Origin: Roseomonas aerilata DSM 19363
GTDB taxonomy: Bacteria > Pseudomonadota > Alphaproteobacteria > Acetobacterales > Acetobacteraceae
Assembly: GCF_000711725.1 (NCBI RefSeq)
Contig: NZ_JONP01000006.1
Span: 62,001 to 126,000 of the forward strand
DNA length: 64,000 bases
Direction of reading: 5' to 3'
Shown: in pieces, positions 7,377-28,357 of the stretch
How positions within the stretch are numbered: the first letter of the stretch is position 1
Layout: each line of letters opens with the position of its first letter
Notes under the pieces: model-generated
Told to the model about the DNA's origin: nothing
What the model saw: only the letters and a program-made list of their open reading frames with translations
Database searches by the model: none
Translations under genes and position numbers: made by a program

Positions 7377-7396
7377 ATGGACGCTGGATCCTTGAA

Positions 7397-8526: not shown

Positions 8527-8595
8527 GGCCGATTTTCCCTGAAACGGAGAAGGGGCTTCGAGATGCCGGACGAAGGTTTGCGGGCTGTCCGCAGT

Positions 8596-9576
8596 TCACT
8601 CAATGCTCGCACCGACCTGAGCGATCAGTTCGCGGTACACCCGCCTGTCCTGGGCCAGCGAGGTTCGGAACTCGGCGGGCGTCCCGGCAACCACCTCGCC
8701 CCCAAAGTCCTGGAGCAACCTGGCGCGAAGCTCCGGCGCGGCGAGCACCGAGCGCGCGGCCTCCGCAATGTGCTGCACCGTCGCCTCCGCCATCCCAGCC
8801 GGCCCGAGCAGGCCGAACCATCCCTTGGAGGAGAAGCCGGAAATGCTTTCGGCTGCTGTCGGCACCTCCTCGATACCCGGGAAGCGCGCGGGCGAGGTCA
8901 CGGCGAGGGCCTTCAGGAATCCACCCTTCACCTGCGGCGTGATGACCGGGGTGCCGTCGATCAGCAAATCCACACGACCCGCGATCGTGTCCTGCACGGC
9001 GCCTGACATGGCGGAATAGGGCACGTTCACCATCTCGATCCCAAGCGATGTCCGCAGCCGCTCGCCGACGAAGCGCGGCAGGCCGGTGGCGCTGATCGTG
9101 GCGAAGGTGACCGGCCCCGGCCGGCTGCGTGCGTAGGCGCCGAGTTCCGCCAGGGTGCTCGCCGGCATCCCGGGCCGCGCGGCCACCATGAAGGGCGTCG
9201 ACATGAGGAGCGAGACGGGCGTGAAGTCGCGTTCCCCATTGAAGGGCACGTTCCGCATCAGCCCCTCGTTCAGCAGCAGCATGGAGGCATGCGCGAAGAG
9301 CAGCGTATGCCCGTCCGTCTCTCCCCTCGCGACGGCCTGCGCGGCCAGGTTGCCGCTGGCGGCCGGCCGATTGTCCACGATCACGGGCTGGCCCCAATGC
9401 GCCGAAAGGCGGTCCGCCAGGATGCGCGCGATCACGTCGGGCGCACCTCCTGCCGGTATGCCGACGAGGAACCTGACCGGACGGGAGGGATAACCGCCCT
9501 CCGCCGCTCGCGCCCGTCGCACGCACCAACCCAGGCCTGCCGCAGCCACGATCAACCCCCGGCGTGACGTCGTCAT
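8596..9576 (-). CDS. TctC/Bug-family substrate-binding protein
   Basis: A 326-residue secreted receptor. The ATG at 9576 follows a strong GGAGGAGG ribosome site 6 nt away and begins a twin-Arg signal (MTTSRRGLIVAAAGLG). The ligand-loop motif is RPVRFLVGIPAGGAPD, with Gly-Ile in place of the usual Pro-Phe, so the binding pocket may differ from the three paralogues at 1.5-4.5 kb. It sits between an aromatic hydroxylase gene and an SDR gene on the same strand, with short gaps of 44 and 69 nt. This suggests that it captures the carboxylated compound that these enzymes attack. No TctAB partner is nearby. Confidence 0.9.
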   Translation of the reverse strand: MTTSRRGLIVAAAGLGWCVRRARAAEGGYPSRPVRFLVGIPAGGAPDVIARILADRLSAHWGQPVIVDNRPAASGNLAAQAVARGETDGHTLLFAHASMLLLNEGLMRNVPFNGERDFTPVSLLMSTPFMVAARPGMPASTLAELGAYARSRPGPVTFATISATGLPRFVGERLRTSLGIEMVNVPYSAMSGAVQDTIAGRVDLLIDGTPVITPQVKGGFLKALAVTSPARFPGIEEVPTAAESISGFSSKGWFGLLGPAGMAEATVQHIAEAARSVLAAPELRARLLQDFGGEVVAGTPAEFRTSLAQDRRVYRELIAQVGASIE

Positions 9577-9620
9577 TCGCGTCCTCCTCCCTCTCTGGCG
9601 CCCCTCTTCGGGGGCGTTCC

Positions 9621-11279
9621 TCATGCCGCTGCTGTGGCGCGCTCCGCAGGGCGGCTTCGGCCCGCTTCGCTGGCGCCGCGCACCACGTCCAGCAGGACCG
9701 GTGCGTCCATGGGCAGCTCGCTTCCCCGCCAGGCCACGTGCTGGTCCGGCCTGATCAGGGCGAGCGGTGCCTCGTAGCGGGCAGCCAGGCGCGGGTCGCC
9801 GGGGCGCACCACCCGCAGGGGCAGGCCGATGCCCTGCGCGGCCGCCTGCAGCGCTGTCACCACCGCCTCGTGGCCAGCATCCAGCACCAACAGGCTGAAC
9901 CCGTCGGAGAGGTGGTCGTAGAGCGAGGATCCGTCCGCGAGCCAGAGATGCGGCGCCACGCAGCCGGGATGGGCCGATGGCTCATAGACCATGCTGTGGC
10001 GCGGAGGCGGCTCCGTGTCGTCGGGCACGATGATCGGCGAACCGGCATAGCAGTAGCCCTTCACCACGCCGAGCGAGCGCATCTCACGGATCTTCTGGAC
10101 GAGGATCGTCTCGCCCACCTCCCGCCGTGTCGCCTCGCCGAGAAAGCCCTCCGCCTCGATCCCCGGCCTGGCGAGCTGGTTGCCCACCGTCGCGTAGTTC
10201 GCCACCGCCTCCGCGATGGCCCATTCGTGCACGGGCCGCCGCTCCGTCTCGTAGGCGTCGAGAAGCCCCGCCCCTCCCCATCCCTCGATCATGGCGGCCA
10301 GCTTCCAGCCGAGGTCCACCGCGTCGCCCACGCCCATGTTCATGCCGAAGCCGCCGAAGGGCGGGTGGAGGTGGCAGGCGTCGCCGGCAAGAAAGACATC
10401 TCCGCGGCGGTATCCATCCGCGATCAACCGGCGCGCAACCCAGGGATCGGCCCCGACCACCTCCACGTCGATATCGAGCCCTGTCGAGCGTCGGATCAGG
10501 GCAGGAATGTCGATGGCGACTGGATCGACATCCGCGCCGATCTTCGTGGCAATGAAGTACCAGAGCCCGTCATCGCTCATCGGGCCGAGCAGCGCGGGCA
10601 CGTCCTCGTTGATCATCCAGTACATGAGCGCCGGCCCGTGTGCGTTCAGCGCCGCAAGGCGCGAGGAGCGGAAGACGATGTTGAGGTTTGCGGCATATCC
10701 CCCATCGCCCTGCATGCGCGCGCCGATCAGCTTGCGCACGCTGCTGCGGGCGCCGTCCGCGCCCACGAGGTAGCGCGCGCGGATGCTTCGCCGCCTCGCC
10801 CCGGAAGGGTGCGCGACGGTAGCGAGGATGCCGGCCTCGTCCTCCACAAAACCTTCCAGAGCCGTGTCGAACTCGACCCGCACGGAGGGGAGCGAGACCG
10901 CATGCGCGCGCAGCACCTCTTCCAGCGTGTATTGCGGCACCCATTGCGCGCCTTCCGCATAGAGGTCGTTCGGGGCCTGCCCGCAACTGAAGACGCCCTC
11001 GAAGCGGGCGAGCAGCGGCCCGCCCATGCGGGTGGCGAAGACAACGTCCGCCGGGTAGTCGTCGCGGATCGGCGAGGCCCGGCGCAGCGTCTCGGCGATG
11101 CCCCAGCGGCGAAGGTGCTCGCGCGTGCGCACATTGGTCATCTTGGCGCGGGGGCTGTAGCCGACGCGGTCGTTCCTCTCGACGACCCCGCACGCGATGC
11201 CGCGACGTCCGAGTTCGATCGCGAGCGAGAGGCCCACGGGCCCCGCGCCGACAACGAGAACCTCCACGACGTCGCTCAT
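9621..11279 (-). CDS. FAD-dependent monooxygenase, phenol/hydroxyphenylpropionate hydroxylase (MhpA/TfdB/PheA) type
   Basis: A 552-residue class A flavoprotein hydroxylase. The FAD fold is VEVLVVGAGPVGLSLAIELG (residues 6-25). The DG motif is VGADGARSSVRKLIG (about 175). The GD motif is VFLAGDACHLHPPFGGFGMN (about 300), followed by VDLGWKLAA. The extra C-terminal domain of about 150 residues, thioredoxin-like in this family, matches MhpA/TfdB-sized proteins rather than the 390-residue PHBH group. The reaction is expected to be NAD(P)H-dependent ring hydroxylation of a phenolic or phenyl-carboxylate substrate. It leads an operon with TctC and SDR genes, and a LysR regulator is transcribed divergently, the classic arrangement for inducible aromatic catabolism. 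Confidence 0.9.
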   Translation of the reverse strand: MSDVVEVLVVGAGPVGLSLAIELGRRGIACGVVERNDRVGYSPRAKMTNVRTREHLRRWGIAETLRRASPIRDDYPADVVFATRMGGPLLARFEGVFSCGQAPNDLYAEGAQWVPQYTLEEVLRAHAVSLPSVRVEFDTALEGFVEDEAGILATVAHPSGARRRSIRARYLVGADGARSSVRKLIGARMQGDGGYAANLNIVFRSSRLAALNAHGPALMYWMINEDVPALLGPMSDDGLWYFIATKIGADVDPVAIDIPALIRRSTGLDIDVEVVGADPWVARRLIADGYRRGDVFLAGDACHLHPPFGGFGMNMGVGDAVDLGWKLAAMIEGWGGAGLLDAYETERRPVHEWAIAEAVANYATVGNQLARPGIEAEGFLGEATRREVGETILVQKIREMRSLGVVKGYCYAGSPIIVPDDTEPPPRHSMVYEPSAHPGCVAPHLWLADGSSLYDHLSDGFSLLVLDAGHEAVVTALQAAAQGIGLPLRVVRPGDPRLAARYEAPLALIRPDQHVAWRGSELPMDAPVLLDVVRGASEAGRSRPAERATAAA

Positions 11280-11311
11280 CTGCCCGGTGCTTCCTTCCCT
11301 GATGCTGCCGA

Positions 11312-11332
11312 GGATCAGCGGTTGAGCGATCC
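11312..11332. promoter_or_regulatory. Candidate LysR-type operator in the divergent promoter region
   Basis: GGATC (11312-11316) and GATCC (11328-11332) form an inverted repeat separated by 11 nt. It lies between the divergent FAD hydroxylase and LysR genes, 33 nt upstream of the hydroxylase start. LysR regulators bind interrupted dyads of the T-N11-A kind in exactly this position. The assignment rests on position and symmetry only. Confidence 0.35.
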
Positions 11333-11390
11333 GGAAGAAGATGGAGAATCGGGGTCAGCGATGCCGATTCGTTATCCGTGGCAGGTCAGG

Positions 11391-12305
11391 ATGAAGCTTC
11401 AGCACTTCCGTGAAGTGGTCGCGATCGCCGAGCAGGGCAGCATTCGCGCGGCCGCGCGCCTGCTGGGCGTGGCGCAGCCCGCCCTCACCCGCAGTCTAGC
11501 GGATCTGGAACACGAGCTTGGCGCCCCGCTTTTCGAACGGCGCGTGCGCGGCGTGATCCCGACCCCGCTCGGCCAGGCCTTCGTCCGCCGCGCCGCTTCC
11601 ATCTCCCAGGAGATCCGGCGGACGGAGGAGGAGATGGCGCAGCTTCGCGGCGCCACCACGGGCACGGTAACGGCGGGCCTATCCATCGCCGCGCACCTCG
11701 CCTTCCTTCCCTCGGCGCTTGCGCCCTTCCTGAAACGCTACCCGGACACGAGGCTGCACGTGATCGAGGGCTTCTATCCTACGCTCGAGGGCGGGCTGCG
11801 CGAGGGGCGGATCGACTTCTACTTCGGCGTCGATCCCGGCCCCCCCATCGCGCGCGAACTCTCGCGCGAGGTCTTCCGACCCAACCGCCGGACGGTCCTG
11901 TGCCGCGCCGGGCACCCGCTCGCCGCCTCCACCTCGCTGTCCCAACTCAGCAGTGCCGGATGGACCACCACCTCAATCACCGTCAGCGCGGAGGATGAGG
12001 TCAGCGCCATCTTCGAGCGCCACGGTCTGCCCGCGCCGAAACTCGCCCTGCGCTGCCAGTCCGCGCTCACGGTAATGACCTGCATCGCCTACAGCGACCT
12101 GCTGGCCATGGTGCCGCTGCAGTGGAGCAAATTCGCGCTGACCCGCGGCGCTCTGACAACGATCGAGGTGAAGGAAGAACTCGCCGCGCCACCCCTGGTG
12201 ATCATCAAACGCGCCGACCTTCCGCTCACCCCCGCGGCGACGCATCTCCTCACCCTGCTCAAGCGGGCGCCAGCAGCGAGCGGGCACGCGACGAGGAGCC
12301 TTTGA
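11391..12305 (+). CDS. LysR-family transcriptional regulator
   Basis: A 304-residue LysR regulator. The N-terminal winged helix-turn-helix is textbook: MKLQHFREVVAIAEQGS, then RAAARLLGVAQPALTRSLADLE, then LGAPLFERRVRG-PTPLG. A two-lobed effector-binding domain follows from about residue 90. The start at 11391 gives the usual family length. An in-frame ATG at 11361 would add ten residues not typical of the family. It is divergent from the MhpA-like hydroxylase operon and probably activates it in response to an aromatic inducer. It converges on the transketolase-like gene. Confidence 0.92.
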   Translation: MKLQHFREVVAIAEQGSIRAAARLLGVAQPALTRSLADLEHELGAPLFERRVRGVIPTPLGQAFVRRAASISQEIRRTEEEMAQLRGATTGTVTAGLSIAAHLAFLPSALAPFLKRYPDTRLHVIEGFYPTLEGGLREGRIDFYFGVDPGPPIARELSREVFRPNRRTVLCRAGHPLAASTSLSQLSSAGWTTTSITVSAEDEVSAIFERHGLPAPKLALRCQSALTVMTCIAYSDLLAMVPLQWSKFALTRGALTTIEVKEELAAPPLVIIKRADLPLTPAATHLLTLLKRAPAASGHATRSL

Positions 12306-12402
12306 GGCGGTCGTTCACCCCATCCCTAACGCCAGAGAGGACCCTTCCCTCTCCAGACCTTCGGCAAGCGCGCGGCATTCGTCCCACGCCATCCAGGGGC
12401 CT

Positions 12403-12442
12403 GGCTGGACGCACAGGTCCAACCCTGGACCTGCGTCTGGCC
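12403..12442. terminator. Long imperfect hairpin between convergent genes
   Basis: Left arm 12403-12420 pairs with right arm 12427-12442. CAGGTCC pairs with GGACCTG around a six-base loop, then GACG with CGTC after a two-base bulge, then five more pairs including two wobbles. It lies between the convergent LysR and transketolase-like genes, about 100 nt from each stop. There is no T-run, so it would be a non-canonical or bidirectional end signal. Confidence 0.4.
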
Positions 12443-12545
12443 GCCGGCGAGGCGATGATTGAGGGCTTGTTCCCCCCTGGTGCCTTTCCTGCGCGTGCAG
12501 TCGCCTCCGGTCCATGACCCGAGGCGCACCGGCCGCAAACCGCCA

Positions 12546-14918
12546 TCAAACCGCCCGGAGGTGCCGGATAGGCCGCCCCGGTGCGATCTCCTCCACCGCG
12601 GCCGCGATGGATTGCGCGTCGATCCCCGCCAGCTGGTAGAGATCTTGCAACGACCCCGTCTGGCCGAAGCGCGTGACGCCGAGCGCGCGGGCACGGTGGC
12701 CGCGTACGGAGCCGAGCCAGCCGAGCGTTGCCGGATGCCCATCCAGCACGGTGACCAGCGCGCAGTCGCGCGGCACCTTCGCGAGCAGCCGCTCGATATG
12801 GCATGCGGCCCCTCCTTTGCGCTCGGCCATCCAGCCCTGGTGCAGCCGGTCGGCGGAGGTCACGGCCAGCAGCCCGATATCGCGCCGGTCCTCGGCGACA
12901 AGGCTGACCGCCTCCAGCGCCTCGGGCGCCACGGCGCCGGTATAGGCGATGACGGCTTCCGCATTCGGCCCTGGGGGGCGCAGCCAGTAGGCCCCGGCGA
13001 TCATGTCCGCTGCCTCCGCCAGCCCGATCTCGCGCGAAGGTTGCGGGATCGTCCGGGTCGAGAGGCGGAAATAGACGGATCCGCCGGCCTCGTCCCCCAC
13101 TCCGCCGGCACGCTGCACGTGCTCGAAGGCCCAGCGCAGCAGCACCGCCAGCTCGTCCACGTAGGCGGGTTCGAAGCTCGCCAGTCCGTCCTGCGCCATG
13201 CCGATCAGCGGCGTCGCGATCGACTGGTGCGCCCCTCCTTCCCCGGCCAGCGAGATGCCGGACGGCGTGGCGACGAGGATAAAGCGAGCGTCCTGGTAGC
13301 AGGCGTAGTTCAGCGCATCGAGGCCGCGCTCGATGAAGGGATCGTAGAGCGTGCCCACGGGGATCAGCCGCTCGCCGTTAATGGCGTGGGACAGTCCGAG
13401 CGCGGAGAGCAGCGTGAAAAGGTTCATCTCGGCGATGCCGAGTTCCAGGTGCTGTCCCTTGGGGGAGAAGCGCCAGTGGAAGGTGGAGGGGATGCGCTCC
13501 GTCCGGAAAACATCCGCCACCTCCTCCCGCGCAAAGAGGCCGCGCCGGTTCACCCAGCCGCCGAGATTGGTCGAGACGGTCACGTCGGGCGAGGTGGTGA
13601 CGATGCGCCGGGCGAGCGGCGTGTCCCCTTTCGCGAGCTCGTTCATCAACTGCCCGAAGCCATGCTGGGTCGAGAGTTCCCGCCCCGCCGGCACCGGCAG
13701 CGCCTCCGGCACGGGAATGGCCGGGGCTTCCAGGCGACGTGGGCCATTCGCGTTGAAGGGAACCGCGGCCAGGAAGGCGTCGAGCCTGGCAGCGGGCAGG
13801 CGCATCCCCTCGTGGCGATTCCATTCCTGCCCCGGCCGAATGCCCATCGCGGCGCGCAGCGTCTCCACCTGCGCCGGCGTCAGCAGCCCCGCGTGGTTGT
13901 CCTTGTGGCCGGCCAGCGGCAGGCCCGATCCCTTGATGGTGTAGCAGATGAAGCAGACCGGCCGGTCATGCGCCTTCGCGGTCTCGAAGGCCTCGATGAG
14001 GAGGGCGAGGTCGTGGCCGCCGAGGTTGCCCATCAGCGCCGCCAGTTCCTCGTCCGAGCGGCGTTCGAGCAGGGCCGTCAGTGGCCCTTGGTCGCCCAGT
14101 TCCTCCGTCAGCCGCGCGCGCCAGGCCGCGCCACCGCCGAAGGTCAGCGCGGAGTAGAGCGGGTTGGGGCAGGCCTCGATCCATTCCCGCAGCCTCTCCC
14201 CGCCGGGCTCGGCGAAGGCGGCTCTCTGCAGCCGGCCGTGGCGCAGCACCACGACATCCCAGCCGAAGTTGCGGAACATCGTCTCGAACTTCGACCACAG
14301 CCCCTCGCGGATTACAGCGTCCAGGCTCTGGCGGTTGTAGTCCACCACCCACCAGGTGTTGCGCAGGCCGTGCTTCCAGCCCTCCAGCAGGGCCTCGAAG
14401 ATGTTGCCCTCGTCCATCTCCGCGTCGCCGACGAGCGCGACCATCCGTCCGACCGCTCGCTCCGTTCCCCAGCCCTGCGCCCGCACATAGTCCTGCACGA
14501 GGGAGGAGAAGAGTGTCTGCGCCACGCCGAGGCCGACGGAGCCCGTGGAGAAATCCACGTCGTCATGGTCCTTGGTGCGGGACGGGTAGGACTGCGCCCC
14601 GCCGAGCCCGCGGAAGTTCTTCAGCCGCTCCAGCGTCTGGTTCCCCAGCAGGTACTGGATGGCGTGGAACACCGGGCTGGCATGCGGCTTCACCGCGACC
14701 CGGTCCTCCGGCCGCAGCACGGCCAGATAGAGCGCCGTCATGATGGTGGCGATGGAGGCGCTGGAAGCCTGGTGCCCGCCCACCTTCAGCCCGTCCCTGT
14801 TCGGGCGAAGGTGGTTGGCGTTGTGGATCATCCATGTGGCCAGCCAGAGGATCTTGCGCTCCAGCTCCGCCAGCGCCTCAAGATCCGGCGCAGCCGCCCC
14901 CGCATCACCTTCGCGCAT
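12546..14918 (-). CDS. Transketolase-like thiamine-diphosphate enzyme (TK / homodimeric E1 type)
   Basis: A 790-residue protein with the three transketolase domains. The N-terminal ThDP-binding domain has KVGGHQASSASIATIMTALY, STGSVGLGVAQTLFSS and the ThDP motif GDAEMDEGN with the metal-ligand Asn in VVDYNRQSLD (about residue 235). The central pyrimidine-binding domain is at about 440-640, with EMNLFTLLSALGLSH carrying the activating Glu. A C-terminal domain follows. It is longer than housekeeping transketolase (about 660) and shares features with AceE-type pyruvate dehydrogenase E1, so the exact donor substrate is open. GGGAGG lies 6 nt upstream of the ATG. Neighbours are catabolic genes rather than Calvin or pentose-phosphate genes. 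Confidence 0.85.
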   Translation of the reverse strand: MREGDAGAAAPDLEALAELERKILWLATWMIHNANHLRPNRDGLKVGGHQASSASIATIMTALYLAVLRPEDRVAVKPHASPVFHAIQYLLGNQTLERLKNFRGLGGAQSYPSRTKDHDDVDFSTGSVGLGVAQTLFSSLVQDYVRAQGWGTERAVGRMVALVGDAEMDEGNIFEALLEGWKHGLRNTWWVVDYNRQSLDAVIREGLWSKFETMFRNFGWDVVVLRHGRLQRAAFAEPGGERLREWIEACPNPLYSALTFGGGAAWRARLTEELGDQGPLTALLERRSDEELAALMGNLGGHDLALLIEAFETAKAHDRPVCFICYTIKGSGLPLAGHKDNHAGLLTPAQVETLRAAMGIRPGQEWNRHEGMRLPAARLDAFLAAVPFNANGPRRLEAPAIPVPEALPVPAGRELSTQHGFGQLMNELAKGDTPLARRIVTTSPDVTVSTNLGGWVNRRGLFAREEVADVFRTERIPSTFHWRFSPKGQHLELGIAEMNLFTLLSALGLSHAINGERLIPVGTLYDPFIERGLDALNYACYQDARFILVATPSGISLAGEGGAHQSIATPLIGMAQDGLASFEPAYVDELAVLLRWAFEHVQRAGGVGDEAGGSVYFRLSTRTIPQPSREIGLAEAADMIAGAYWLRPPGPNAEAVIAYTGAVAPEALEAVSLVAEDRRDIGLLAVTSADRLHQGWMAERKGGAACHIERLLAKVPRDCALVTVLDGHPATLGWLGSVRGHRARALGVTRFGQTGSLQDLYQLAGIDAQSIAAAVEEIAPGRPIRHLRAV

Positions 14919-16279: not shown

Positions 16280-17740
16280 TCAGACCGCCATAAGACGGTC
16301 CCGATCGCCGCTCGCCGACAGAACCTCCGCCGGCACGGATTCAAGCGGCATCTGGATCTCGCAGACGAGTCCCTGCGGCTCCCAGAAAAGCGCGACTTCG
16401 CCGCTCAGCTGCACGCGCACCGCGCTTTCAAGCATCCGTCCGCCGAAGCCGCGACGCTTCGGGACATCGTTCAGCGGGGGCCCACCAGATTCCGCCCAGC
16501 GCAGCTTCAAGCGCGCCAGGTTGTCGCCGCCGCGCTCCACCTGCCAGGAAACGGATACGCGACCCTCCGCGGCCGAGAGGGCGCCGTACTTCACGGCGTT
16601 GGTGGCCAGCTCATGCGCGATCATGGCGAGCGGCTGCACCGTCGAGACGGGAAGCGAGACACGCGGCCCCTTCAGCACCGCGCGCCCGGGGTCGGTTCCC
16701 AGGAAGGGCAGGAGTTCCCCTTCCAGCAGGGCGCGAAGGTCGGCCCCGGCCCAGCGATCCTCGACAAGCAGCGCCTGCGCCCGGACCAGCGCCGCGACCC
16801 GGCCCTCGACCGCGCGGATATAGCCCGGCACGTCCGCCACCTTCGTCAGCCGCAGCGTGGCCTGCACGACCGCCAGCGCGTTCTTCGCGCGGTGATCCAC
16901 CTCGCGGGAGAGCAAGGTCTGCCGCTCCTCCGCCAGTTTGCGCTCGGTGATGTCGAGCGAGACGCCTGCCAGGCCGAGCGCGGTCCCATCGGGCGCATGG
17001 ACCGGTCGCCCGCGCACCTGCAGCCAGCGCACCGTGCCGTCGGATTGGACCGCACGGTACTCGACGTCGTAGTCCGCGTGCTCCGACACCGAGCGCGCCA
17101 GGGCCGACTGCACGCGCTCGCGGTCCTTGGCGTGGATGGCGGCGAGAAGATCCGTATAGGTGAAGGGGCCCTCATCCTCCTGGCCGAAGGCCGCGCGGAA
17201 ATGCGACGAGGCGGTAAGAGCCCCGCTGCGGAGATCCAGTTCCCAGGTGCCGAGCCGCCCGGCCTCCAGAGCCAGGCGCAGCCGCGCCTCGCTCTCGCGC
17301 AGCGCCGCCAGTGTTTCCCGCTGGCCTGCACGAGCCCGGGCATCGTCCTGCGCGCGCCTGACGGCGATCGGCAGCCGGGCGAGGCGCTGCTTCACCACGT
17401 AGTCCGTGGCGCCCTGCCTCACCGCCTCGACGGCGGCTTCCTCGCCCATCGTGCCCGAGACAAAGATGAAGGGCGTATCGGGCGCGATCTCGCGCGCGAC
17501 GGAAAGGGCCGTGAGGCCGTCGAAATCCGGAAGGACGAAGTCGGCCAGGATGAGGTCGATCTCGCCCCGGAGCAGGGCCGCGGTGAAGTCCGCGCGGCCG
17601 CCGACGAGCTGGATGGTGCTGGCAAGGCCCCAATGCGCCAGGTATTCCGCGATCAGCTCGGCATCGATCGCGCTGTCTTCCAGGTGCAGGATGCGGCAGT
17701 CGGCGCTTTCCGGCGCCAGGGCCGGTCGGGCTGACGTCAC
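16280..17740 (-). CDS. Hybrid sensor: receiver-PAS-HWE histidine kinase
   Basis: A 486-residue cytosolic protein. Residues 15-130 form a receiver domain (acidic pair EDS at 21-23, phospho-acceptor Asp67 in LILADFVLPDFDG, Lys117 in DYVVKQ). A PAS domain spans about 150-270 (GTWELDLRSGALTASSHF to GVSLDITERKLAEE). The kinase part carries the HWE box SREVDHRAKNALAVVQA (His about 282), the N box HELATNAVKYGAL and the WAESGG segment that names the HWE family. There is no membrane segment. The GTG start overlaps the stop of the preceding receiver gene by 4 bp (GTGA), so it is translationally coupled to it. It probably receives phosphate at its own N-terminal receiver and responds to red/far-red light through the neighbouring phytochrome. 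Confidence 0.92.
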   Translation of the reverse strand: MTSARPALAPESADCRILHLEDSAIDAELIAEYLAHWGLASTIQLVGGRADFTAALLRGEIDLILADFVLPDFDGLTALSVAREIAPDTPFIFVSGTMGEEAAVEAVRQGATDYVVKQRLARLPIAVRRAQDDARARAGQRETLAALRESEARLRLALEAGRLGTWELDLRSGALTASSHFRAAFGQEDEGPFTYTDLLAAIHAKDRERVQSALARSVSEHADYDVEYRAVQSDGTVRWLQVRGRPVHAPDGTALGLAGVSLDITERKLAEERQTLLSREVDHRAKNALAVVQATLRLTKVADVPGYIRAVEGRVAALVRAQALLVEDRWAGADLRALLEGELLPFLGTDPGRAVLKGPRVSLPVSTVQPLAMIAHELATNAVKYGALSAAEGRVSVSWQVERGGDNLARLKLRWAESGGPPLNDVPKRRGFGGRMLESAVRVQLSGEVALFWEPQGLVCEIQMPLESVPAEVLSASGDRDRLMAV

Positions 17741-18207
17741 GTCCCCTCGCCCGGATTCCCGGAACCGGCATGGTCCGGCGGCGGCTCGTTCAGCACGGCC
17801 CAGAAGGCACCGATGTCGCGGATCGCCTCGAAGAACTCTCGGTGCCCGACCGGCTTGACCACGAAGGCGTTGACGCCGAGGCCGTAGCTCTTGATCAGGT
17901 CCTGCTCCTCGCGCGAGGAGGTCAGCATCACCACCGGCACGTTGCGCGTGCGCGCCTCGCGCCGCATCTCCTCCAGCACTTCGAGCCCGTCCATCCGCGG
18001 CAGCTTGATGTCGAGCAGCACCACGGCCGGCAGCTGTGGCGCTTCGTCCGGCGAATTGCCGCGGCGGAACAGCATGTCCAGCGCCTCGACGCCGTCCCGT
18101 GCCACCACGACCGGGTTGGCCAGGCGGCTTTTCTCCAGGGCGGCCAGGGTCAGCTCGATATCGTTCGGGCTGTCCTCCACGAGCAGAACGGGCCTGAGCT
18201 GCGACAT
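17737..18207 (-). CDS. CheY-like response regulator of the phytochrome (Rcp1) type
   Basis: A 156-residue single-domain receiver with no output domain. The acidic pair is E11-D12, the phospho-acceptor is Asp66 in VVLLDIKLPRMDG, the switch residue is Thr96 in MLTSS, and Lys118 is in VVKPVG. The long acceptor loop and the C-terminal extension (FFEAIRDIGAFWAVLNEPP) match Rcp1-like regulators that pair with bacterial phytochromes. Its ATG is 1 nt after the stop of the phytochrome gene and its stop overlaps the HWE kinase start. It therefore sits physically and probably functionally between the two kinases as a phosphate shuttle. Confidence 0.93.
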   Translation of the reverse strand: MSQLRPVLLVEDSPNDIELTLAALEKSRLANPVVVARDGVEALDMLFRRGNSPDEAPQLPAVVLLDIKLPRMDGLEVLEEMRREARTRNVPVVMLTSSREEQDLIKSYGLGVNAFVVKPVGHREFFEAIRDIGAFWAVLNEPPPDHAGSGNPGEGT

Positions 18208-18208
18208 C

Positions 18209-20473
18209 TCAGATCGACTCCCCGGTCACCGCGTCAGGGCGGGGCAGCGAGAAGCTGAACACCGCCCCCTTGCCCGGGCTGCCCTCGGCCCAGATCCGGC
18301 CGCCATGCCGCTCGATGATGCGCTGGGCATTCGCGAGGCCGATGCCGACCCCCTCGAATTCCTCGGCCCGGTGCAGCCGTTGGAACACGCCGAAAAGCTT
18401 GTGCGCGTAGGCCATCTCGAAACCGACCCCGTTGTCCTTCACGTGGAAGACGAACTCTTTCTCCGCCGTTTCGCAACCGATCTCGACGACTGCCGGATCC
18501 CGGCCGCGCGTGTACTTGACGGCATTCGAGAGAAGATTCTGGAAGACCTGCCTCAGCATGGCGGGATCCGCGTGGATCAGCGGCATCGGCGAGACCCGCC
18601 ACTCGATGGGCCGCCCGCCCTGCTCCGGCTCCAATGCGCGGCGAACCTCCGCCAGGAGCGCCGCCGGGTCGAACCCCACGGGAACAAGGGAAGTCCGGCC
18701 CATCTGCGAGAAGTTCAGCAGCGCGTCCACCAGCCGGCCCGCATTCTCCGCGGCCTCGATGACGGTGGTGAGATACCGGCGCCCCCTGTCGGTCAGCCTC
18801 TCGCCCTCGCGCTCGCGCAGCATTTCCGAGAAGCCGACGATGTGGCGGAACGGCGCACGCAGGTCGTGCGAGACGGAGTACGAGAAGGCCGCCAGTTCCT
18901 TGTTCACGCGCTCCAGCCGCCCGGTCAGCTCCGCCCGCTCCTCTGCCGCCCGCAGCACGCCGCCGACGATGGCGGTGCGCAGGTCGCGCGCGGCCTCCAC
19001 TTCCGCCGCGCTCCAGGGCGCCGAGCGCTGGCGGACCGTTTCCGCCCAGGCGGCGAAGGAACGCCGCGGATGCAGGCGGCTCGGCGTCGGATCCGCTGGC
19101 TTCCGGGGATCGCCACCCCATTTCACCGTCCGGACCAATTCGGGCCGGAACCACAGGACGAAGCTCGGGTGGAGCTTGGAGATCGAGACGGCGAGGAGGC
19201 CGCTGGCGGTGTCGGCGATGGCCTCGGCCGAGGGCAGCAGCTCGGAGAGGGCGCCGCTCTCCAGCACCTCCTCCATCCCGCGCTCGGCCAGCCAGGCCGC
19301 GATGCGCCGCACCTCCGCCTCCGGCGGCGTTCGGCCGGTGAGGACGCAGGCCCCCTCCGTCAGCACCGCCGCCCCCTCCGCCCCGGTCAGTTCGAGCAGG
19401 TCCCTGGGCACCGCCATCAAGCCATCGACGAAGTGCTTCGCCTCCGCCATGCGCGCCAGCAGGCGTCCTTCAAGGCCCTTCAGACGGGCGCGCGCCTCGG
19501 CATGCGCCATCTCCTCGCGGGCGGCGATGCGGACGGCGAACATCTGCGCCACCAGGTCGCAGGCATTCCGCGCGGCGAACGACACGCGGCGCGGCGTGGC
19601 GTGGTGGCAGGAGACAAGGCCCCAGAGCCGCCCGTCGCCGCGAATGACGGAGACGGACATGGAGGCCGGCGTCCCCATGTTGCGCATGTATTCAAGGTGC
19701 ACCGGCGACACGCTGCGAAGGCTCGAGAAGGTGAGGTCGAGCGGCGGACCGTCCTCCGCCTGCAGGATGGTGACCGGGCTGTAGCCGGCGTCGGCGATCA
19801 GCCGCTGCGGGTTCAGCTCATAGAGCCGTCGGGCCTGCGCGGGGATGTCAGAGGCCGGGAAACGCAGGCCGAGATAGGAGGGCAGGCGCTCGTTCCGGTC
19901 CTCGGCGATGACCGTCCCGTCCCAGTTATCCTCGAAACGATAGACGAGCACGCGGTCGAAGCCGGTGATGCGCCGCACGGCCGCCGCGGTGGTGGCCGCC
20001 AGCAGCTCCGGCGTCGCCACGCGCCCGAGGCGGGCATAGGCGTCGCGCACGCCGGGATAGAGTGCCTCGAGGGTGCTCCGCGCCTCAGGCCCCTCGTCGT
20101 CGCCTTCCACTTCCAGCTCGAGCACGACCTGCCCATCGGGGGAGCGATGCCCCACCGCCTGGAAGGCCGCGCCGGATGTCGCCCGGAAGCGGCCGAGCTG
20201 CATCGGGCCGACGCTCGGCAGGCCGCGCAGCTTCGGGCGCAGCACCTTCACCCAGTCATTCGGGAGGACACGCTCGATCGGCTCACCGAACGCTACGGCA
20301 AGGTCCGTCGCGAGCACCGCCTCCGAGGCGGCGCTCGCGTGGAGAAGTTGCAGATCCTCTGCCCCAAAGGCCAGCAGGTGGCCGTGCGGCTGGATGCTAC
20401 CGGGGATATGGATCGGCTCGCGCTCGCATCCCACCGTTGGATCGGCGGGCCGGTCAGCATGGTCGAGCGGCAT
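18209..20473 (-). CDS. bphP: Bacteriophytochrome histidine kinase (PAS-GAF-PHY-HisKA-HATPase)
   Basis: A 754-residue red/far-red photoreceptor. Cys16 in VGCEREPIHIPGSIQPHG is the biliverdin-attachment site of the BphP class, next to the start of the PAS domain. The GAF domain carries the chromophore-pocket signature FPASDIPAQARRLY (about 215). The PHY domain has the WGLVSCHHATPRRV region (about 290). The kinase module has the H box YSVSHDLRAPFRHI (His about 535), N box QNLLSNAVKYTRG, VKDNGVGFEM and GVGIGLANAQRII. The ATG at 20473 places Cys16 at the expected N-terminal distance. A longer open frame upstream has no phytochrome similarity. It heads a three-gene operon. A heme oxygenase gene for biliverdin is not in the window. 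Confidence 0.95.
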   Translation of the reverse strand: MPLDHADRPADPTVGCEREPIHIPGSIQPHGHLLAFGAEDLQLLHASAASEAVLATDLAVAFGEPIERVLPNDWVKVLRPKLRGLPSVGPMQLGRFRATSGAAFQAVGHRSPDGQVVLELEVEGDDEGPEARSTLEALYPGVRDAYARLGRVATPELLAATTAAAVRRITGFDRVLVYRFEDNWDGTVIAEDRNERLPSYLGLRFPASDIPAQARRLYELNPQRLIADAGYSPVTILQAEDGPPLDLTFSSLRSVSPVHLEYMRNMGTPASMSVSVIRGDGRLWGLVSCHHATPRRVSFAARNACDLVAQMFAVRIAAREEMAHAEARARLKGLEGRLLARMAEAKHFVDGLMAVPRDLLELTGAEGAAVLTEGACVLTGRTPPEAEVRRIAAWLAERGMEEVLESGALSELLPSAEAIADTASGLLAVSISKLHPSFVLWFRPELVRTVKWGGDPRKPADPTPSRLHPRRSFAAWAETVRQRSAPWSAAEVEAARDLRTAIVGGVLRAAEERAELTGRLERVNKELAAFSYSVSHDLRAPFRHIVGFSEMLREREGERLTDRGRRYLTTVIEAAENAGRLVDALLNFSQMGRTSLVPVGFDPAALLAEVRRALEPEQGGRPIEWRVSPMPLIHADPAMLRQVFQNLLSNAVKYTRGRDPAVVEIGCETAEKEFVFHVKDNGVGFEMAYAHKLFGVFQRLHRAEEFEGVGIGLANAQRIIERHGGRIWAEGSPGKGAVFSFSLPRPDAVTGESI

Positions 20474-20985: not shown

Positions 20986-23900
20986 TCACCGGTCCCGAAG
21001 CCGCGCCAGCGTGCCCCGCACCTCCGACCAGGCCGGTCTCCCCGGGGCGAAGCGCGCGCGCAGGTAATGCGTGAGGTCGATAAGCTGCGCGTCCGTCAGG
21101 CTGCCCGCGAAAGCGGGCATGGCCCCGAGTTCCGGCACGGCCGGCCTCGGGATGCCCTCCAGCATCACGCGCAGCAGGTTGTCCGGCCGGTCGCTGTAAA
21201 GATTGGTGTTGAAGGCAAGATTGGGACGTGCGCCGAAGCCGGTCGCCGTCCGGGGATCATGGCAGACCGCACAGGCGCCGTCGAAGATACGCTGCCCGAT
21301 GCTGCCGGTCAGGGGCCCGGCCGCCGCGTCGGAGGCCGCCTGCACACTCGCCGCAATGGCGGAGGGCACCTTCGGCGGCGGCTGCATGAAGGAGGCAAGA
21401 TAGGTCGCCATGGCGCGGATATCGGCGTCGGGCAGCGCGCGGAGGCCTTCGACGACGGGGGCCATGTTGCCAGCCGCCACGCCGTGGAATTGTGCCTGCC
21501 CCGTGCGGAGATAGGCGAAGAGCTCCGCCTCGTCCCAGGGCACGGGCGCGCGGGAGAGGCCGGTCAGCGCGGGCGCCTCCCAGCCCTCTACCATGGCGCC
21601 CGTCAGATGGGCGCCCCCACCCTCCATCGCGCCCAGCGCGTTGCGCGGCGTGTGGCAGGCGCCGCAATGGCCCAGCCCCTCCACGAGATAGGCTCCGCGG
21701 TTCCAGTCGGCCGAACGGGCAGGATCGGCCTCCACCGTGCCCGGCCGGTGAAAGAGCGCGTTCCAGCCCGCCAGCAGCGGGCGCAGGTTGTAGGGAAAGG
21801 CGAGCCCGGTCCTCGGCAGCTCGTTCCGAACGGGCCGCTGGGCCATGAGGTAGGCATAGATAGCCTGCAGGTCGGCATCCGTGGTGCGCGTGAAGTTCGT
21901 GTAGGGAAAGGCCGGGTAGAGATGCCGCCCGTCGCGGCCGATGCCGTCCCGCATCGCGCGCTCGAAGGCGGTGTAGGACCAACCGCCGATGCCCGTCTCG
22001 GGGTCGGGCGTCAGGTTAGGGGTGACGATCTCGCCGAAGGGCGTTTCCAGCGCCCGGCCGCCGGCCATCGGAATGCCGTTCTCCGCCGTGTGGCAGACGG
22101 CGCAATCGCCCAGCGCCACAAGCAGCCGCCCCCGCTCGATGGTCGCCGGCGCATAGGCGGCCGGATCCGGCGGGGCGATCGGCGCGATGGCTGGCCGCCA
22201 GGGCAGGGCCGCGAGCGCGAGCCCGCCGGCGCCCACCAGGCCGGAGAGTGCCCCGGTCCAGAAGCGGCGCTTGCGGGCCGGCGGCGCGGGCGGGCCGGGC
22301 AGCGCCTGGGGAAAGGCGGGCTCCTCCGGGCGCAGACCGGCGCGGATCCGGTCCGGCGTGAAAGGCGGTTCGCGGAAGCGCACGCCGGTCGCGTCGAAGA
22401 TGGCGTTGGCGATGGCGGCGGCGCTGGGGACGGAGGCGGATTCACCCGCGCCCAACGCCGGCTGGTCGTGCCGCTGCAGCAGCAACGCGTCGATCCTCGG
22501 CACCTCGGGGAAGGTGATGATGGGATAGGCGCCCCATTCATTGCTCGTAGTCACGCCGTGCTCGAAGGTCACGCGCTCCTTCAGCACGCGGCTGGTGGCC
22601 TGGATGACGTTGCCGTGGAGCTGATGGCGGACGCCGGCGGGGTTGATCATCAGCCCCGTGTCCTGCCCCGCCGTCACACGGGTGACGGAAACCTCGCCAC
22701 TGCCCGGATCCACGGCGACATCCACCACCCAGGCAGACCAGGCGGCCGCGGTCCCGGGGAACTTGCCGTGGACATAGACGGCATAGGCGAAGCCGCGGCC
22801 GTGCAGCAGCCCGTCTTCCGCCACCGCGGGCGGGCTTGGTTCCGGCCGCGGTTGCCAGCCCGCGCGCTCCGCCGTGGCCCTGACCAGCGCGACGGCACGC
22901 GGATCGTGCAGGTAGCGCAACCGGAACTCGACAGGATCGATCCGCGCCTCCGCCGCCATCTCGTCCATGTAGGATTCATGCGCGAAGGTATTCGGCAGCG
23001 CGGCGACGCCGCGGAGCCAGGAGGCGCGCACGATCGGCGGCGTGTCCTGAACGGTGATCCGCATGTTCTCGATGTCGTAGGGCGGGATCGCCGTGCGATC
23101 CCCAATATCGCCGACGGATGGGATATTGGAGACGACGCCGGTGAGGATGAGCGCGAGAGTTGGCGCGCGGTTGCCCGGAAAGCGCGTCTCGAACTCGTAG
23201 GCGACCAGCTCGCCGCGCTCGTCCAGCGCGCCGTTCACGTCCATGAGCTGTCCGGGGCCCTTAGGCTCCCAGGCGTGTTCCTGCTCGCGCGAGAGCTGCA
23301 CGCGAACGGGGCGGCCGACCGCGCGCGCGAGGAGCGCGGCATCGGCCGCCACGTCATCCGCGCAGTTGCGGCCATAGCAGCCCGCCGCCTCCATCCGCAC
23401 CACCTCCACCGCCCCGACGGGCAAGCCGAGGAGGAGCGCGAGGTCGTCGCGCAGCCAGTGCGGGTTCTGCGTGCCGGCCCAGACGGTGATCCCGTCCTCC
23501 CGCATCCTCGCGACGGCGCAGGAGGGGCCGATGCTGGCGTGCATGTGGTAAGGCCAGACATAGGTGCGGCGCATGGCGGTCGCGGCACTTGCGATCGACG
23601 CATCCACGTCGCCCGTCTCCTTCAAGCGGCGCGGCACGGCGGGGTTCGCGCGCAGCGCCGCCTCAAGCTCCGCAAGATCCGGCAGCGCGGGCGGCTCCCG
23701 CCAGGCCACCTTCAGCCGCTGCGCCGCAAGGATGGCGTGCTCCTCCCGCTCGCAGACCACGCCGACGAAATCGGCTCTTGTGACCACGGCGACGAGGCCG
23801 GGGATGTCGGCCACGGAACTCTTGTCCACGCCGATGAGGCTGTTGCCGACGAAATCGCCCGAATCGATCCCGGCGTAGGGCGGGCGCACCACGCGGCCGT

Positions 23901-24543
23901 GCAGCATGCCCGGCACGCGCAAGTCGTGAACGTAGGAGAAGGTGCCCGCCGCCTTGGCCGGGATATCTGTGCGCGGCACGGGCTGGCCGACGACGCGGTA
24001 GCTCTCCACCGGCTTGACCGGCGTCGCGGGATCGAGCTGCAGATGGATACGGCGGCCGCGTAGCAGCTCGGCATAGGCGAGAAAACGGTTCCCATCCTCG
24101 GCGCCGACCACGCCATCCACCACGCGCAGCGCGTCGACGGGCACGCCCAGTTCATCAGCGGCGAGTGCCAGCAGCGCGGCGCGCGCCTGGGCGGCGGCGG
24201 CGCGCAGCGGATGGGCAGTGACCTGGATCGTCTCGCTCGCGATCGTGCCGCCCTGGTCCGGCCCCGCGCCCGTGTTGCCCAGCAGCATGGAAACCCGCTC
24301 CAGCGGCAGGTCCAGTTCCTCCGCCACGATCTGCGCGAGCGCCGTGCGGATGCCGGTGCCGAGATCGACATGGCCGTTCAGCGCATTCGTCGCGCCGTGC
24401 TCGTCCATGACGAGGAAAAGCTCCGTCGCCGGATCCTCCGGCCGCCTGCCCTGCCCCGCCGGATCGCGCGAGACGGCGAGATGGCCGCCGCGGCTGAGCA
24501 GCGCCTCTCGGCTCGCCTCGCTCGTGTCGCGCCGCGCCGTCAC
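20986..24543 (-). CDS. nicB: Nicotinate dehydrogenase large subunit-like: molybdopterin oxidase fused to three cytochrome c domains
   Basis: About 1185 residues. The N-terminal 730 or so form a molybdenum-hydroxylase large subunit of the aldehyde oxidase/isoquinoline-oxidoreductase group (NGHVDLGTGIRTALAQI, WREPPALP, GAGESASVPSAAAIANAI). A short hydrophobic segment near residue 760 precedes three c-type heme sites: DCAVCH (about 812), HCGACH (about 957) and ACAVCH (about 1089). This architecture and length match Pseudomonas NicB as I recall it. That enzyme hydroxylates nicotinate at C6 and passes electrons through its hemes toward the respiratory chain instead of to NAD. The GTG at 24543 overlaps the stop of the iron-sulfur subunit gene (GTGA), giving tight coupling. 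The preference for nicotinate over another N-heterocycle is inferred from the adjacent NicC homologue. Confidence 0.88.
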   Translation of the reverse strand: MTARRDTSEASREALLSRGGHLAVSRDPAGQGRRPEDPATELFLVMDEHGATNALNGHVDLGTGIRTALAQIVAEELDLPLERVSMLLGNTGAGPDQGGTIASETIQVTAHPLRAAAAQARAALLALAADELGVPVDALRVVDGVVGAEDGNRFLAYAELLRGRRIHLQLDPATPVKPVESYRVVGQPVPRTDIPAKAAGTFSYVHDLRVPGMLHGRVVRPPYAGIDSGDFVGNSLIGVDKSSVADIPGLVAVVTRADFVGVVCEREEHAILAAQRLKVAWREPPALPDLAELEAALRANPAVPRRLKETGDVDASIASAATAMRRTYVWPYHMHASIGPSCAVARMREDGITVWAGTQNPHWLRDDLALLLGLPVGAVEVVRMEAAGCYGRNCADDVAADAALLARAVGRPVRVQLSREQEHAWEPKGPGQLMDVNGALDERGELVAYEFETRFPGNRAPTLALILTGVVSNIPSVGDIGDRTAIPPYDIENMRITVQDTPPIVRASWLRGVAALPNTFAHESYMDEMAAEARIDPVEFRLRYLHDPRAVALVRATAERAGWQPRPEPSPPAVAEDGLLHGRGFAYAVYVHGKFPGTAAAWSAWVVDVAVDPGSGEVSVTRVTAGQDTGLMINPAGVRHQLHGNVIQATSRVLKERVTFEHGVTTSNEWGAYPIITFPEVPRIDALLLQRHDQPALGAGESASVPSAAAIANAIFDATGVRFREPPFTPDRIRAGLRPEEPAFPQALPGPPAPPARKRRFWTGALSGLVGAGGLALAALPWRPAIAPIAPPDPAAYAPATIERGRLLVALGDCAVCHTAENGIPMAGGRALETPFGEIVTPNLTPDPETGIGGWSYTAFERAMRDGIGRDGRHLYPAFPYTNFTRTTDADLQAIYAYLMAQRPVRNELPRTGLAFPYNLRPLLAGWNALFHRPGTVEADPARSADWNRGAYLVEGLGHCGACHTPRNALGAMEGGGAHLTGAMVEGWEAPALTGLSRAPVPWDEAELFAYLRTGQAQFHGVAAGNMAPVVEGLRALPDADIRAMATYLASFMQPPPKVPSAIAASVQAASDAAAGPLTGSIGQRIFDGACAVCHDPRTATGFGARPNLAFNTNLYSDRPDNLLRVMLEGIPRPAVPELGAMPAFAGSLTDAQLIDLTHYLRARFAPGRPAWSEVRGTLARLRDR

Positions 24544-25028
24544 TCCTGCACCTCCGGCTCCGGAATGCCCGCGGCGCGGCGCACCGCGCGCAGGATCTCG
24601 ATATGCGCGCCGCAGCGGCAGAGATTGTAGCGCAGCGACTGCCGGATCTGGGCGTCCGTAGGATGCGGGTTGCGCTCCAGCAGGGCCACCGCCGTCATGA
24701 TCATGCCGTTGAGGCAGTAGCCGCACTGGGCGGCCTGCTCCTCCACGAAGGCCCTCTGCACGGGGTGCAGGCCGTGCTCATCCGCCAACCCCTCCAGCGT
24801 CACCACCTCGCGCCCCTCCACCAGGCCCAGCGGCAGGATGCAGGAGCGCGCGGCGACGCCATCCATCAAAACGGTGCAGGCGCCGCATTCGCCCAGGCCG
24901 CAACCGAATTTCGGCCCGTTCAGCGAGAGGTCGTTCCTCAGGACATAGAGAAGGCGCGTGTCCGCGGGAAGGCGCAGCGCGTGCGCCTCGCCATTCACCT
25001 GCAGATGGATGACCGGGTGCTGCATCAT
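24540..25028 (-). CDS. nicA: Nicotinate dehydrogenase small subunit-like: 2x[2Fe-2S] protein
   Basis: A 162-residue electron-transfer subunit of a molybdenum hydroxylase. The plant-ferredoxin-type cluster is bound by Cys43, Cys48, Cys51 and Cys63 (GCGLGECGAC). The second cluster, in the helical domain, is bound by Cys102, Cys105, Cys137 and Cys139 (QCGYC and LCRCG). All eight ligands are present. The length agrees with NicA. It partners the molybdopterin-cytochrome subunit whose gene overlaps its stop codon by 4 bp, and no separate FAD subunit is encoded, as expected for the NicAB type. It lies 105 nt downstream of the NicC-like gene on the same strand. Confidence 0.9.
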   Translation of the reverse strand: MMQHPVIHLQVNGEAHALRLPADTRLLYVLRNDLSLNGPKFGCGLGECGACTVLMDGVAARSCILPLGLVEGREVVTLEGLADEHGLHPVQRAFVEEQAAQCGYCLNGMIMTAVALLERNPHPTDAQIRQSLRYNLCRCGAHIEILRAVRRAAGIPEPEVQE

Positions 25029-25133
25029 CGCGCAGGCAGGCCGCCGGACCCGTCGGCCGGGGGCACGAGGGCCCGGAGCTCCGCGCTGGGCACGTGGTTC
25101 ACCTCGACCTCACCCCTTCTCCATGAGGAGAGT

Positions 25134-27420
<2,287 letters not shown>

Positions 27421-27652
27421 GCGAGCGATCCCAGCCTTTCAGAGGGTGCGATCCGGCGCCGCGAGGCTCCGTGACGGCGGGGAGGTTAGCCGGGCCACTT
27501 CTCGGAAGTAAACACTTACATACAAAAGCCGACGGTGGTGCCCCGACGTCCGAAATGGCGTCACGCCGCAGCCCCAGGGCGCCAGCGCCTCCCCTGCTTG
27601 CCGCTCTGGTATCGGGGTTCTATGGCTGCTGCCCCGAGAGGAACGGCCCGGC
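27421..27652. promoter_or_regulatory. Divergent promoter region between the Rieske/nic operon and the TetR gene
   Basis: This 232-bp gap contains an AT-rich island at about 27505-27527 in otherwise GC-rich DNA. Within it lie overlapping dyads AAGT-AAAC-ACTT (27506-27517) and GTAA-ACAC-TTAC (27508-27519). TetR repressors bind short dyads in such shared promoters, so this is the best candidate operator. Assignment is by position and composition only. Confidence 0.4.
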
Positions 27653-28357
27653 ATGGCGAAGGCCGCAGCGAAGCGGAAAGAGGAACGGCCCACGGAGGGT
27701 GCGAAGGAGCCGCCCCGGCGGACGACGCGTGACGCCGCCGCCACGCGCGGTGCCATCCTTTCCGCCGCCATTGCCGAGTTCGCGCGAGACGGTTTTGGCG
27801 GTGCGCGAGTGGACAAGATCTGCCGCCGCGCCGCGGTGAACGAGCGCATGCTCTACCATTATTTCGGCAGCAAGGAGCTGCTCTTCAGAAGCTGCATCGA
27901 GAAGGTCTACGAAGATCTCGTAACGGCCGAAGCGTCGCTCGAGCTGGACGGTGCGGGCCCGCGCGAGGCCATGCGGAGCGTCATCGCCTTCACCTGGAAC
28001 TACTACCGCACGCATCCGGAGCTGATCAGCCTCCTCAACACCGAGAACCTGCATGGCGGCGTCCATGTCCGTTCGTCGGAGCGGATCGAGGGCTTCGCCT
28101 CGCCGCAGATCCGCATCACCGAGGACGTGCTCCGCCGCGGCGTGGCGGCCGGACTGTTCCGGCAGGACGTGACGGCGGTCGAGCTGCTCGTGACGATCAT
28201 GTCGATCTGTTACTTCCCGCTCTCCAACCGCTGGACGCTCGCCAAGTACCTGCGGCGGGACATCGGGGAGGACGCGGCCGGCGAGGCCTGGCTGGATCAT
28301 GCGACCCGGCTGGTCCTCGATTTTCTCGGATCCCGGGCCACACCGGGCAGTGAATAA
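27653..28357 (+). CDS. TetR-family transcriptional regulator
   Basis: A 234-residue regulator. A charged N-terminal tail of about 27 residues leads into the TetR DNA-binding domain: RGAILSAAIAEFARDGFGGARVDKICRRAAVNERMLYHYFGSKELLF (shown here only as the overall span, residues 32-78; key residues are the YHYFGSKE recognition-helix end). The ligand-binding domain follows. It is divergent from the Rieske-nicC-nicA-nicB-like operon, which it probably represses until a pyridine substrate binds. In Pseudomonas the nicAB operon is controlled by a TetR-type protein, NicS, so the analogy is good, but orthology is not shown here. Confidence 0.9.
   Translation: MAKAAAKRKEERPTEGAKEPPRRTTRDAAATRGAILSAAIAEFARDGFGGARVDKICRRAAVNERMLYHYFGSKELLFRSCIEKVYEDLVTAEASLELDGAGPREAMRSVIAFTWNYYRTHPELISLLNTENLHGGVHVRSSERIEGFASPQIRITEDVLRRGVAAGLFRQDVTAVELLVTIMSICYFPLSNRWTLAKYLRRDIGEDAAGEAWLDHATRLVLDFLGSRATPGSE

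Follow-up and report, generated by a model that had tools for sequence, protein, structure and literature searches.

A mosaic nicotinate operon in Roseomonas aerilata headed by a Rieske oxygenase: a candidate N-demethylase that may feed two nicotinate pathways

What is a Rieske oxygenase doing at the head of an operon for the degradation of nicotinate (vitamin B3)? The question is raised by a 64,000-nucleotide stretch of the genome of Roseomonas aerilata DSM 19363 (contig NZ_JONP01000006.1, positions 62,001 to 126,000; hereafter the window), in which genes for a Rieske non-haem iron oxygenase, NicC, NicA and NicB are transcribed in that order from the minus strand, with a tetR gene divergent from them. 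The aerobic nic pathway of the Pseudomonas putida type (NicAB-NicC-NicX-NicD-NicF-NicE) is matched by sequence in NicA, NicB and NicC, and by homologues of NicX and NicF elsewhere in the genome; it differs in that here a Rieske gene heads the operon, the genes lie on at least three contigs, and NicE and NicD have no match at the cut-offs used. The evidence below points to a feeder enzyme that may release nicotinate from an N-methylated precursor.

A nicotinate operon with a Rieske gene in first position

The features of the locus are as follows.

26374-27420, minus strand: Rieske non-haem iron oxygenase of the VanA_C/DdmC type, 348 amino acids, first gene (Pfam, PDB matches, AlphaFold2 model)
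25134-26285, minus strand: NicC, 6-hydroxynicotinate 3-monooxygenase, 383 amino acids (full-length PDB match)
24540-25028, minus strand: NicA, 2[2Fe-2S] subunit of nicotinate hydroxylase, 162 amino acids (Pfam, identities)
20986-24543, minus strand: NicB, molybdopterin subunit with cytochrome c domains, 1185 amino acids (Pfam, codon-based gene call)
27506-27517, no strand: palindrome AAGT-N4-ACTT, AAGTAAACACTT, candidate TetR operator between the TetR and Rieske genes (pattern search)
27653-28357, plus strand: TetR regulator (TetR_C_29), divergent from the operon (Pfam)

All five genes are in the places and orientations that the initial annotation had given them. Gaps of 88 bp (Rieske/nicC) and 105 bp (nicC/nicA) separate the first three, and nicA and nicB overlap by 4 bases; the start of nicB is that of a codon-based caller (24543), the mechanical open reading frame (ORF) extending to 24726. 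The resemblance to NicC, which had been said to run along the whole protein, does so: residues 3-373 align with the P. putida 6-hydroxynicotinate 3-monooxygenase (PDB 5eow; 538.7 bits, E 7e-161), with 231 of 371 positions identical (62%, counted by eye on the alignment). The counterparts of the active-site residues H47, C202, H211, Y215 and H302 of that enzyme are all identical in the window protein (by eye). Among the rows listed for the six window proteins searched, no NCBIfam cut-off was reached, and the name NicC rests for that reason on the PDB match.

The cofactor motifs earlier ascribed to NicA and NicB were likewise recovered: together the two proteins carry Fer2, Fer2_2, MoCoBD_1, MoCoBD_2, Cytochrom_C and Cytochrome_CBB3 domains (Pfam; NicB searched as the longer ORF), that is, a 2[2Fe-2S] subunit and a molybdopterin/cytochrome c subunit, and three CxxCH motifs (by eye) make the latter a three-cytochrome NicB. 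By domain make-up NicAB is a predicted nicotinate hydroxylase; that nicotinate is its substrate is suggested by gene linkage, to NicC in the window and to Hnr, of the reductive 6-hydroxynicotinate route, in locus L214. A tRNA-Gly called by ARAGORN at 22054-22128 was taken to be a false positive, since it overlaps a haem-binding (CxxCH) stretch within nicB.

The Rieske oxygenase belongs to a distinct clade

The oxygenase (Pfam: Rieske, 1.3e-21; VanA_C, 3.4e-49) retains all of the expected ligands (C48, H50, C67, H70, D156, H159, H164 and D296). With its cluster ligands, bridging Asp, iron triad and VanA_C domain it is, as judged from its sequence, a Rieske monooxygenase of the VanA/DdmC type. 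A scan of genome contigs gave 62 Rieske loci. In a tree of 80 sequences the window protein falls into a clade of 52 (51 sequences plus itself; support 100/97) that is separate from 20 Rieske paralogues of its own order, and within this clade it joins 36 others at a fork with support of 97/87; its branch is long (0.76), and its exact place in the clade is therefore unsure. The closest relatives are 56-58% identical to it. Three further matches (L098, L102 and L112; 46-48% identity) had no gene call and were left out of both the tree and the neighbourhood count given below. The clade is rare: in one family, a search of 349 genomes at 1e-90 gave members in 6. Because of this rarity neighbourhoods were counted instead of the co-occurrence of Rieske and nic genes across genomes.

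Four positions are invariant: Y218, D229, F230 and H254 (window numbering) are found in all 52 clade sequences. Of the 28 sequences outside the clade, 4 have Y218, 14 have D229 and 5 have H254, and F230 does not figure among the commonest residues. In the alignment D229 takes the place of N230 of the dicamba O-demethylase DdmC, H254 corresponds to its H251, and its W285 is not kept; in DdmC, N230 and H251 contact the substrate. The AlphaFold2 model of the window protein (predicted local distance difference test score (pLDDT) 92.9; 27 alignment rows) comes closest, among solved structures, to DdmC (PDB 3gb4; template modelling (TM) score 0.92) and guaiacol O-demethylase (7qwt; 0.88), followed by the hydroxylases SxtT and GxtA (∼0.74-0.80) and the N-demethylase NdmA (∼0.75). 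Fold and ligands are those of VanA_C-type monooxygenases such as DdmC and the guaiacol enzyme, although identity to these is only 32% and 27%, respectively.

The clade is found beside two nicotinate routes

Neighbourhoods were counted over 50 clade loci (51 sequences), with markers sought within 12 kb of the Rieske gene; the window and locus L187 are additional to these. None of the 28 sequences outside the clade has such a marker, although 20 of them derive from loci of only 4 kb. Genes of the nic pathway accompany the clade at two loci (three sequences), both from Comamonadaceae. One, from Variovorax paradoxus (L080), reads nicC, nicE-nicD-nicX-nicF, marR, tetR, Rieske, a TIM-barrel gene, ferredoxin reductase, ferredoxin, MFS transporter, frmA, frmB; neither NicA nor NicB was matched within the stretch examined, and the genome holds a second Rieske gene of the clade. 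The other, from Acidovorax (L077), has nicC near the Rieske gene, and its genome (G303) also carries nicC-nicA-nicB with nicEDXF (L188). Genes of the reductive 6-hydroxynicotinate route occur at 15 of the 50 loci, 13 of them including Hnr itself, and the molybdenum hydroxylase of the reductive cluster was found at 9 of the 62 collection loci. Locus L187 combines formaldehyde-detoxification genes (frmA, frmB) with those of the reductive route: genes for a substrate-binding protein, Rieske oxygenase, TIM-barrel protein, FrmA, FrmB and a reductase (FdR) stand in a row, and enamidase and Hnr genes are no more than 9 kb away. The formaldehyde genes of L080 are recognized by TIGR02818 (FrmA) and by a Pfam esterase match (the putative FrmB); those of L187 are 59% (FrmA) and 53% (FrmB) identical to them. 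On a Sulfitobacter plasmid (NZ_CP084962.1; PLSDB annotation) a Rieske gene lies with genes for 6-hydroxynicotinate reductase, UPF0280, two amino acid synthesis proteins, MarR and an ABC transporter.

The reductive clusters (Azorhizobium and others) have in common with the Roseomonas system both the Rieske clade and related substrate-binding proteins, those of the genus nic operon being 52-57% identical to those of four Rieske clusters; unlike these clusters, the window encodes the oxidative NicC and not Hnr. The reductive route from 6-hydroxynicotinate has been described (PMC3511419), in a paper whose accessible text does not contain the word Rieske.

The Rieske gene is optional in both arrangements. 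A search of 299 genomes of the order for NicC, with up to six candidates scored in each, gave matches at 1e-60 in 54, and in seven other genomes (six of the genus, one of the family) the protein is 85-88% identical to that of the window. All seven carry livJ-livHM-livG-livF-nicA-nicB-nicC-tetR, though nicA lacks a gene call in L034, and in each nicX lies on the upstream side of livJ. The 20-kb stretches around these operons show no Rieske gene in any of the seven, nor was one found anywhere in these genomes at 1e-50 among up to seven scored candidates. Across the order the Rieske protein has a match at 1e-50 in 19 of the 299 genomes, none above 39% identity apart from the source genome; three loci (L042-L044) show the classical order nicC-A-B-permease-X-F-E-D. 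Similarly, Hnr is carried by four Sulfitobacter plasmids (H9-H12) that do not appear in the list of 11 records whose Rieske protein reaches at least 48% identity, and Neorhizobium NCHU2750 has Hnr and no annotated Rieske gene in 25 kb. The conserved pairing of Rieske and nicC that the initial annotation proposed to look for is accordingly absent from the close relatives (0/7), the outcome it had named as speaking against its idea, and recurs in the distant Comamonadaceae.

Two further observations concern these neighbourhoods. Homologues of the TIM-barrel protein (L077:11041-12069) occur at 21 of the 62 loci, often soon after the Rieske gene; the protein has no Pfam or NCBIfam match, and its model (pLDDT 82, six rows) loosely resembles sugar-isomerase-like barrels (TM ∼0.5). 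Sister Rieske genes (∼40% identity) on plasmids have formaldehyde genes 7-8 kb downstream in one of four regions (Shinella); this was not used as evidence on the substrate.

A putative feeder enzyme for nicotinate catabolism

The oxidative and reductive routes share only nicotinate and 6-hydroxynicotinate, and a clade found beside both is for that reason best seen as one of feeder enzymes, an optional one given its absence from all seven nearest nicABC operons and from the Hnr plasmids H9-H12. Since the clade accompanies two routes, is optional in both and twice adjoins formaldehyde genes, a demethylation that yields nicotinate or 6-hydroxynicotinate fits best. We therefore suggest that the operon joins a feeder enzyme to the upper pathway. 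With electrons from a reductase encoded elsewhere, the Rieske enzyme would act on a nicotinate that bears an N-methyl group, trigonelline (N-methylnicotinate) being the likeliest, and release nicotinate and formaldehyde by oxidative N-demethylation; NicAB would convert nicotinate to 6-hydroxynicotinate and NicC the latter to 2,5-dihydroxypyridine; NicX, encoded on contig C25, would open the ring, and NicF, on contig C8, would act further down. The N-methyl compound is preferred to a methoxy compound because trigonelline is natural and accumulates in higher plants; it has also been detected in marine samples (PMC8269262, as far as its accessible text goes). Homarine (N-methylpicolinate), considered for the marine Rieske loci, was set aside, the neighbours being nicotinate genes.

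Demethylase chemistry on one or other of the substrates considered is probable. Trigonelline itself has at best an even chance of being the substrate, and the full scheme, from trigonelline through nicotinate to NicAB and NicC, we regard as evenly balanced between right and wrong. That the clade as a whole comprises N-methylpyridinium demethylases feeding two unrelated nicotinate pathways of Proteobacteria, and so constitutes a second bacterial trigonelline route beside TgnAB, is a possibility that falls a little short of even. Of the two roles that had been offered for the Rieske enzyme, the supply of a methylated pyridine-carboxylate gains from the two nicotinate routes, the formaldehyde genes at two loci and the O-demethylase folds. 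The support and invariant positions of the clade, the kinship of the substrate-binding proteins and the recurring palindrome described below also count in favour of the scheme.

Several observations weigh against this proposal. No nicotinate marker lies within 12 kb at 33 of the 50 clade loci, most of which form one Comamonadaceae subclade, many of them full 20-kb stretches, whose substrate may differ; several of the 33 are truncated by contig ends (for example L073, L076 and L116). Neither nic nor Hnr markers were seen in L098, L102 and L112, and a search for NicX at 1e-60 in 43 clade genomes, which covers 43 of the 62 loci, gave a match in no more than 16. Formaldehyde genes adjoin the Rieske gene at only one of the 50 collection loci and at L187, none is near the window gene, and no reductase gene adjoins it either. 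The linkage to nicC fails in the close relatives, and hydroxylases (SxtT/GxtA) are also near in fold. Finally, the bacterial trigonelline route that has been described proceeds by ring opening through TgnAB (PMC8269262, in the portion accessible), from the same proposed starting compound by a reaction other than the demethylation proposed here.

These points bear differently on the alternatives. The enzyme could act on an unrelated substrate, its neighbourhood being coincidental or due to a shared regulator; the 33 loci that have no nicotinate genes nearby favour this. Against it, the clade recurs in several families next to nicotinate routes of two unrelated kinds, and Y218, F230 and H254 are constant in all 52 sequences, which makes this reading unlikely. 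A ring hydroxylase opening a variant route after NicAB or NicC, the other role first suggested, would suit both the position of the gene at the head of a co-directional row with nicC, nicA and nicB and the nearness in fold of SxtT/GxtA-type hydroxylases; it is improbable, and the suggestion is disfavoured, because the Rieske gene is optional in nicABC and Hnr contexts alike and is found with the reductive route, which reduces 6-hydroxynicotinate.

Within demethylase chemistry, N-methyl-6-oxo-nicotinate (N-methyl-2-pyridone-5-carboxylate) might be converted directly to 6-hydroxynicotinate, bypassing NicAB. L080 would suit this, for its Rieske gene is accompanied by nicC, E, D, X and F in a stretch where neither NicA nor NicB was matched, and 6-hydroxynicotinate is the other compound common to both routes. 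Against it stand NicAB in the window operon and the molybdenum hydroxylase at nine collection loci; to our knowledge the pyridone is also less common in nature, and we consider this substrate unlikely. The last alternative, O-demethylation of a methoxy-pyridine-carboxylate, likewise foreseen in the initial annotation, draws on the closest solved folds, which are those of O-demethylases, and accommodates the formaldehyde genes equally well. We know of no methoxynicotinates that are common natural substrates, and the Asp that replaces DdmC N230 throughout the clade might suit a cationic ring, an argument that is weak because the same Asp occurs in half of the outside sequences; O-demethylation appears a poor prospect.

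Trigonelline demethylation brings the comparison with earlier work into focus. No trigonelline demethylase is known according to the accessible text of PMC10963276, and within our partial coverage of the open-licence literature on trigonelline we found no bacterial Rieske trigonelline demethylase, nor, in open-licence literature, any treatment of nicC, nicX and Rieske together. Because coverage was partial, and because a title of 1991, cited in PMC12093977 (seen in part), reports genes for trigonelline catabolism from Rhizobium meliloti, the reaction may already be in print; a homarine pathway paper of 2026 is cited in the accessible part of PMC13390433. With its defined neighbourhood, its conserved positions and an operator that is likely, the candidate lends itself to direct testing.

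The operon is a mosaic

NicC of the window is the genus's own gene, and NicA and NicB are divergent. Window NicB is 61-63% identical to that of the seven relatives (60-63% across ten relatives compared), against 77-91% among the seven themselves; window NicA is 64-67% identical to that of six of them (58-67% across nine compared). Contig C19 of the source genome (L224:10647-16124) keeps the genus livJ-livHM-livG-livF, 83-88% identical to the four relatives with which it was aligned. On this contig livF is immediately followed by a hydrolase gene, so that nicA-nicB-nicC-tetR are missing, and nicX is gone upstream. Read from these comparisons, the C19 locus is a remnant of the ancestral nicotinate operon, emptied of its nic genes, and the window operon is a mosaic in which the resident nicC, having moved, is regrouped with divergent nicA, nicB and Rieske genes while the emptied locus still stands in the same genome. 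That the resident nicC and nicX moved and nicAB were replaced is the simplest reading, the direction and timing of these events being inferred. Gene GC (guanine plus cytosine) content, at 66.5-71.7%, gives no clear separation of the operon genes. The window nicB is the only full-length copy among two scored of 97 candidates in the genome; the second, on contig C36, is shorter and 43% identical.

The lower-pathway genes had been described as absent, which holds for the operon and not for the genome, where NicX and a NicF homologue were found. NicX, found on contig C25 at 69% identity, is 89-92% identical to that of the seven relatives, 64-70% to three classical clusters and 41% to a fourth (L038). 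The NicF homologue (59% identity) is on contig C8. NicE has no match in the source genome at 1e-10, and NicD none in nine genomes at 1e-20, in a search run without a positive control.

The surroundings of both genes are of separate interest. On C25 (L150:10039-12336) nicX adjoins a flavin monooxygenase 39% identical to NicC, a TetR gene and another liv transporter; the group perhaps belongs to another route to 2,5-dihydroxypyridine, such as one starting from a hydroxypicolinate. On C8 (L216:5974-13918) a LeuC/LeuD-type hydratase pair, a lyase and a protein 25% identical to NicE lie near NicF (gene readings, made with no family search), a possible maleamate-to-malate branch.

A recurrent palindrome upstream of the Rieske gene

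TetR homologues occur at 31 of the 62 Rieske loci, and the TetR of the window may hold the operon repressed, by way of the palindrome at 27506-27517, until a compound of the pathway is present. AAGTAAACACTT occurs once in the window against 0.02 expected. A looser pattern, RAGTNNNNACTY, has an expectation of 0.77 in the window and so is not rare by chance; in 18 of the 51 clade sequences, and in none of the 28 outside, it lies in the 200 bp preceding the Rieske gene, and its density is 20 matches in 10,001 bp of upstream sequence versus 5 in 874,492 bp of the same loci. These counts are to be read with the caution that the pattern was first derived from some of the same upstream regions, and that several of the sequences are close kin (six from Pseudacidovorax; L096 is identical to L097). 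In L076 and L187, which have no RAGTNNNNACTY, another palindrome is present instead. Elsewhere in the genome AAGT-N4-ACTT occurs three more times (C17, C36 and C51), beside neither a Rieske gene nor a nic operon; the C36 site and a NicA/NicB-like pair (57% and 40%) are ∼3.4 kb apart. The genome has no excess of AAGT-N4-ACTT, a reversed-pattern control giving 18 per strand versus 4.

Other features of the window

A putative red-light sensing group (16280-20473), which follows nicB on its strand, comprises a bacteriophytochrome kinase, a response regulator and an HWE-kinase hybrid (Pfam). A catabolic-looking group at 4502-14918 includes two FAD aromatic hydroxylases, an Amdase-family protein and a transketolase/PDH-E1-like protein, together with binding proteins resembling those of tripartite transporters, the last read from the letters only.

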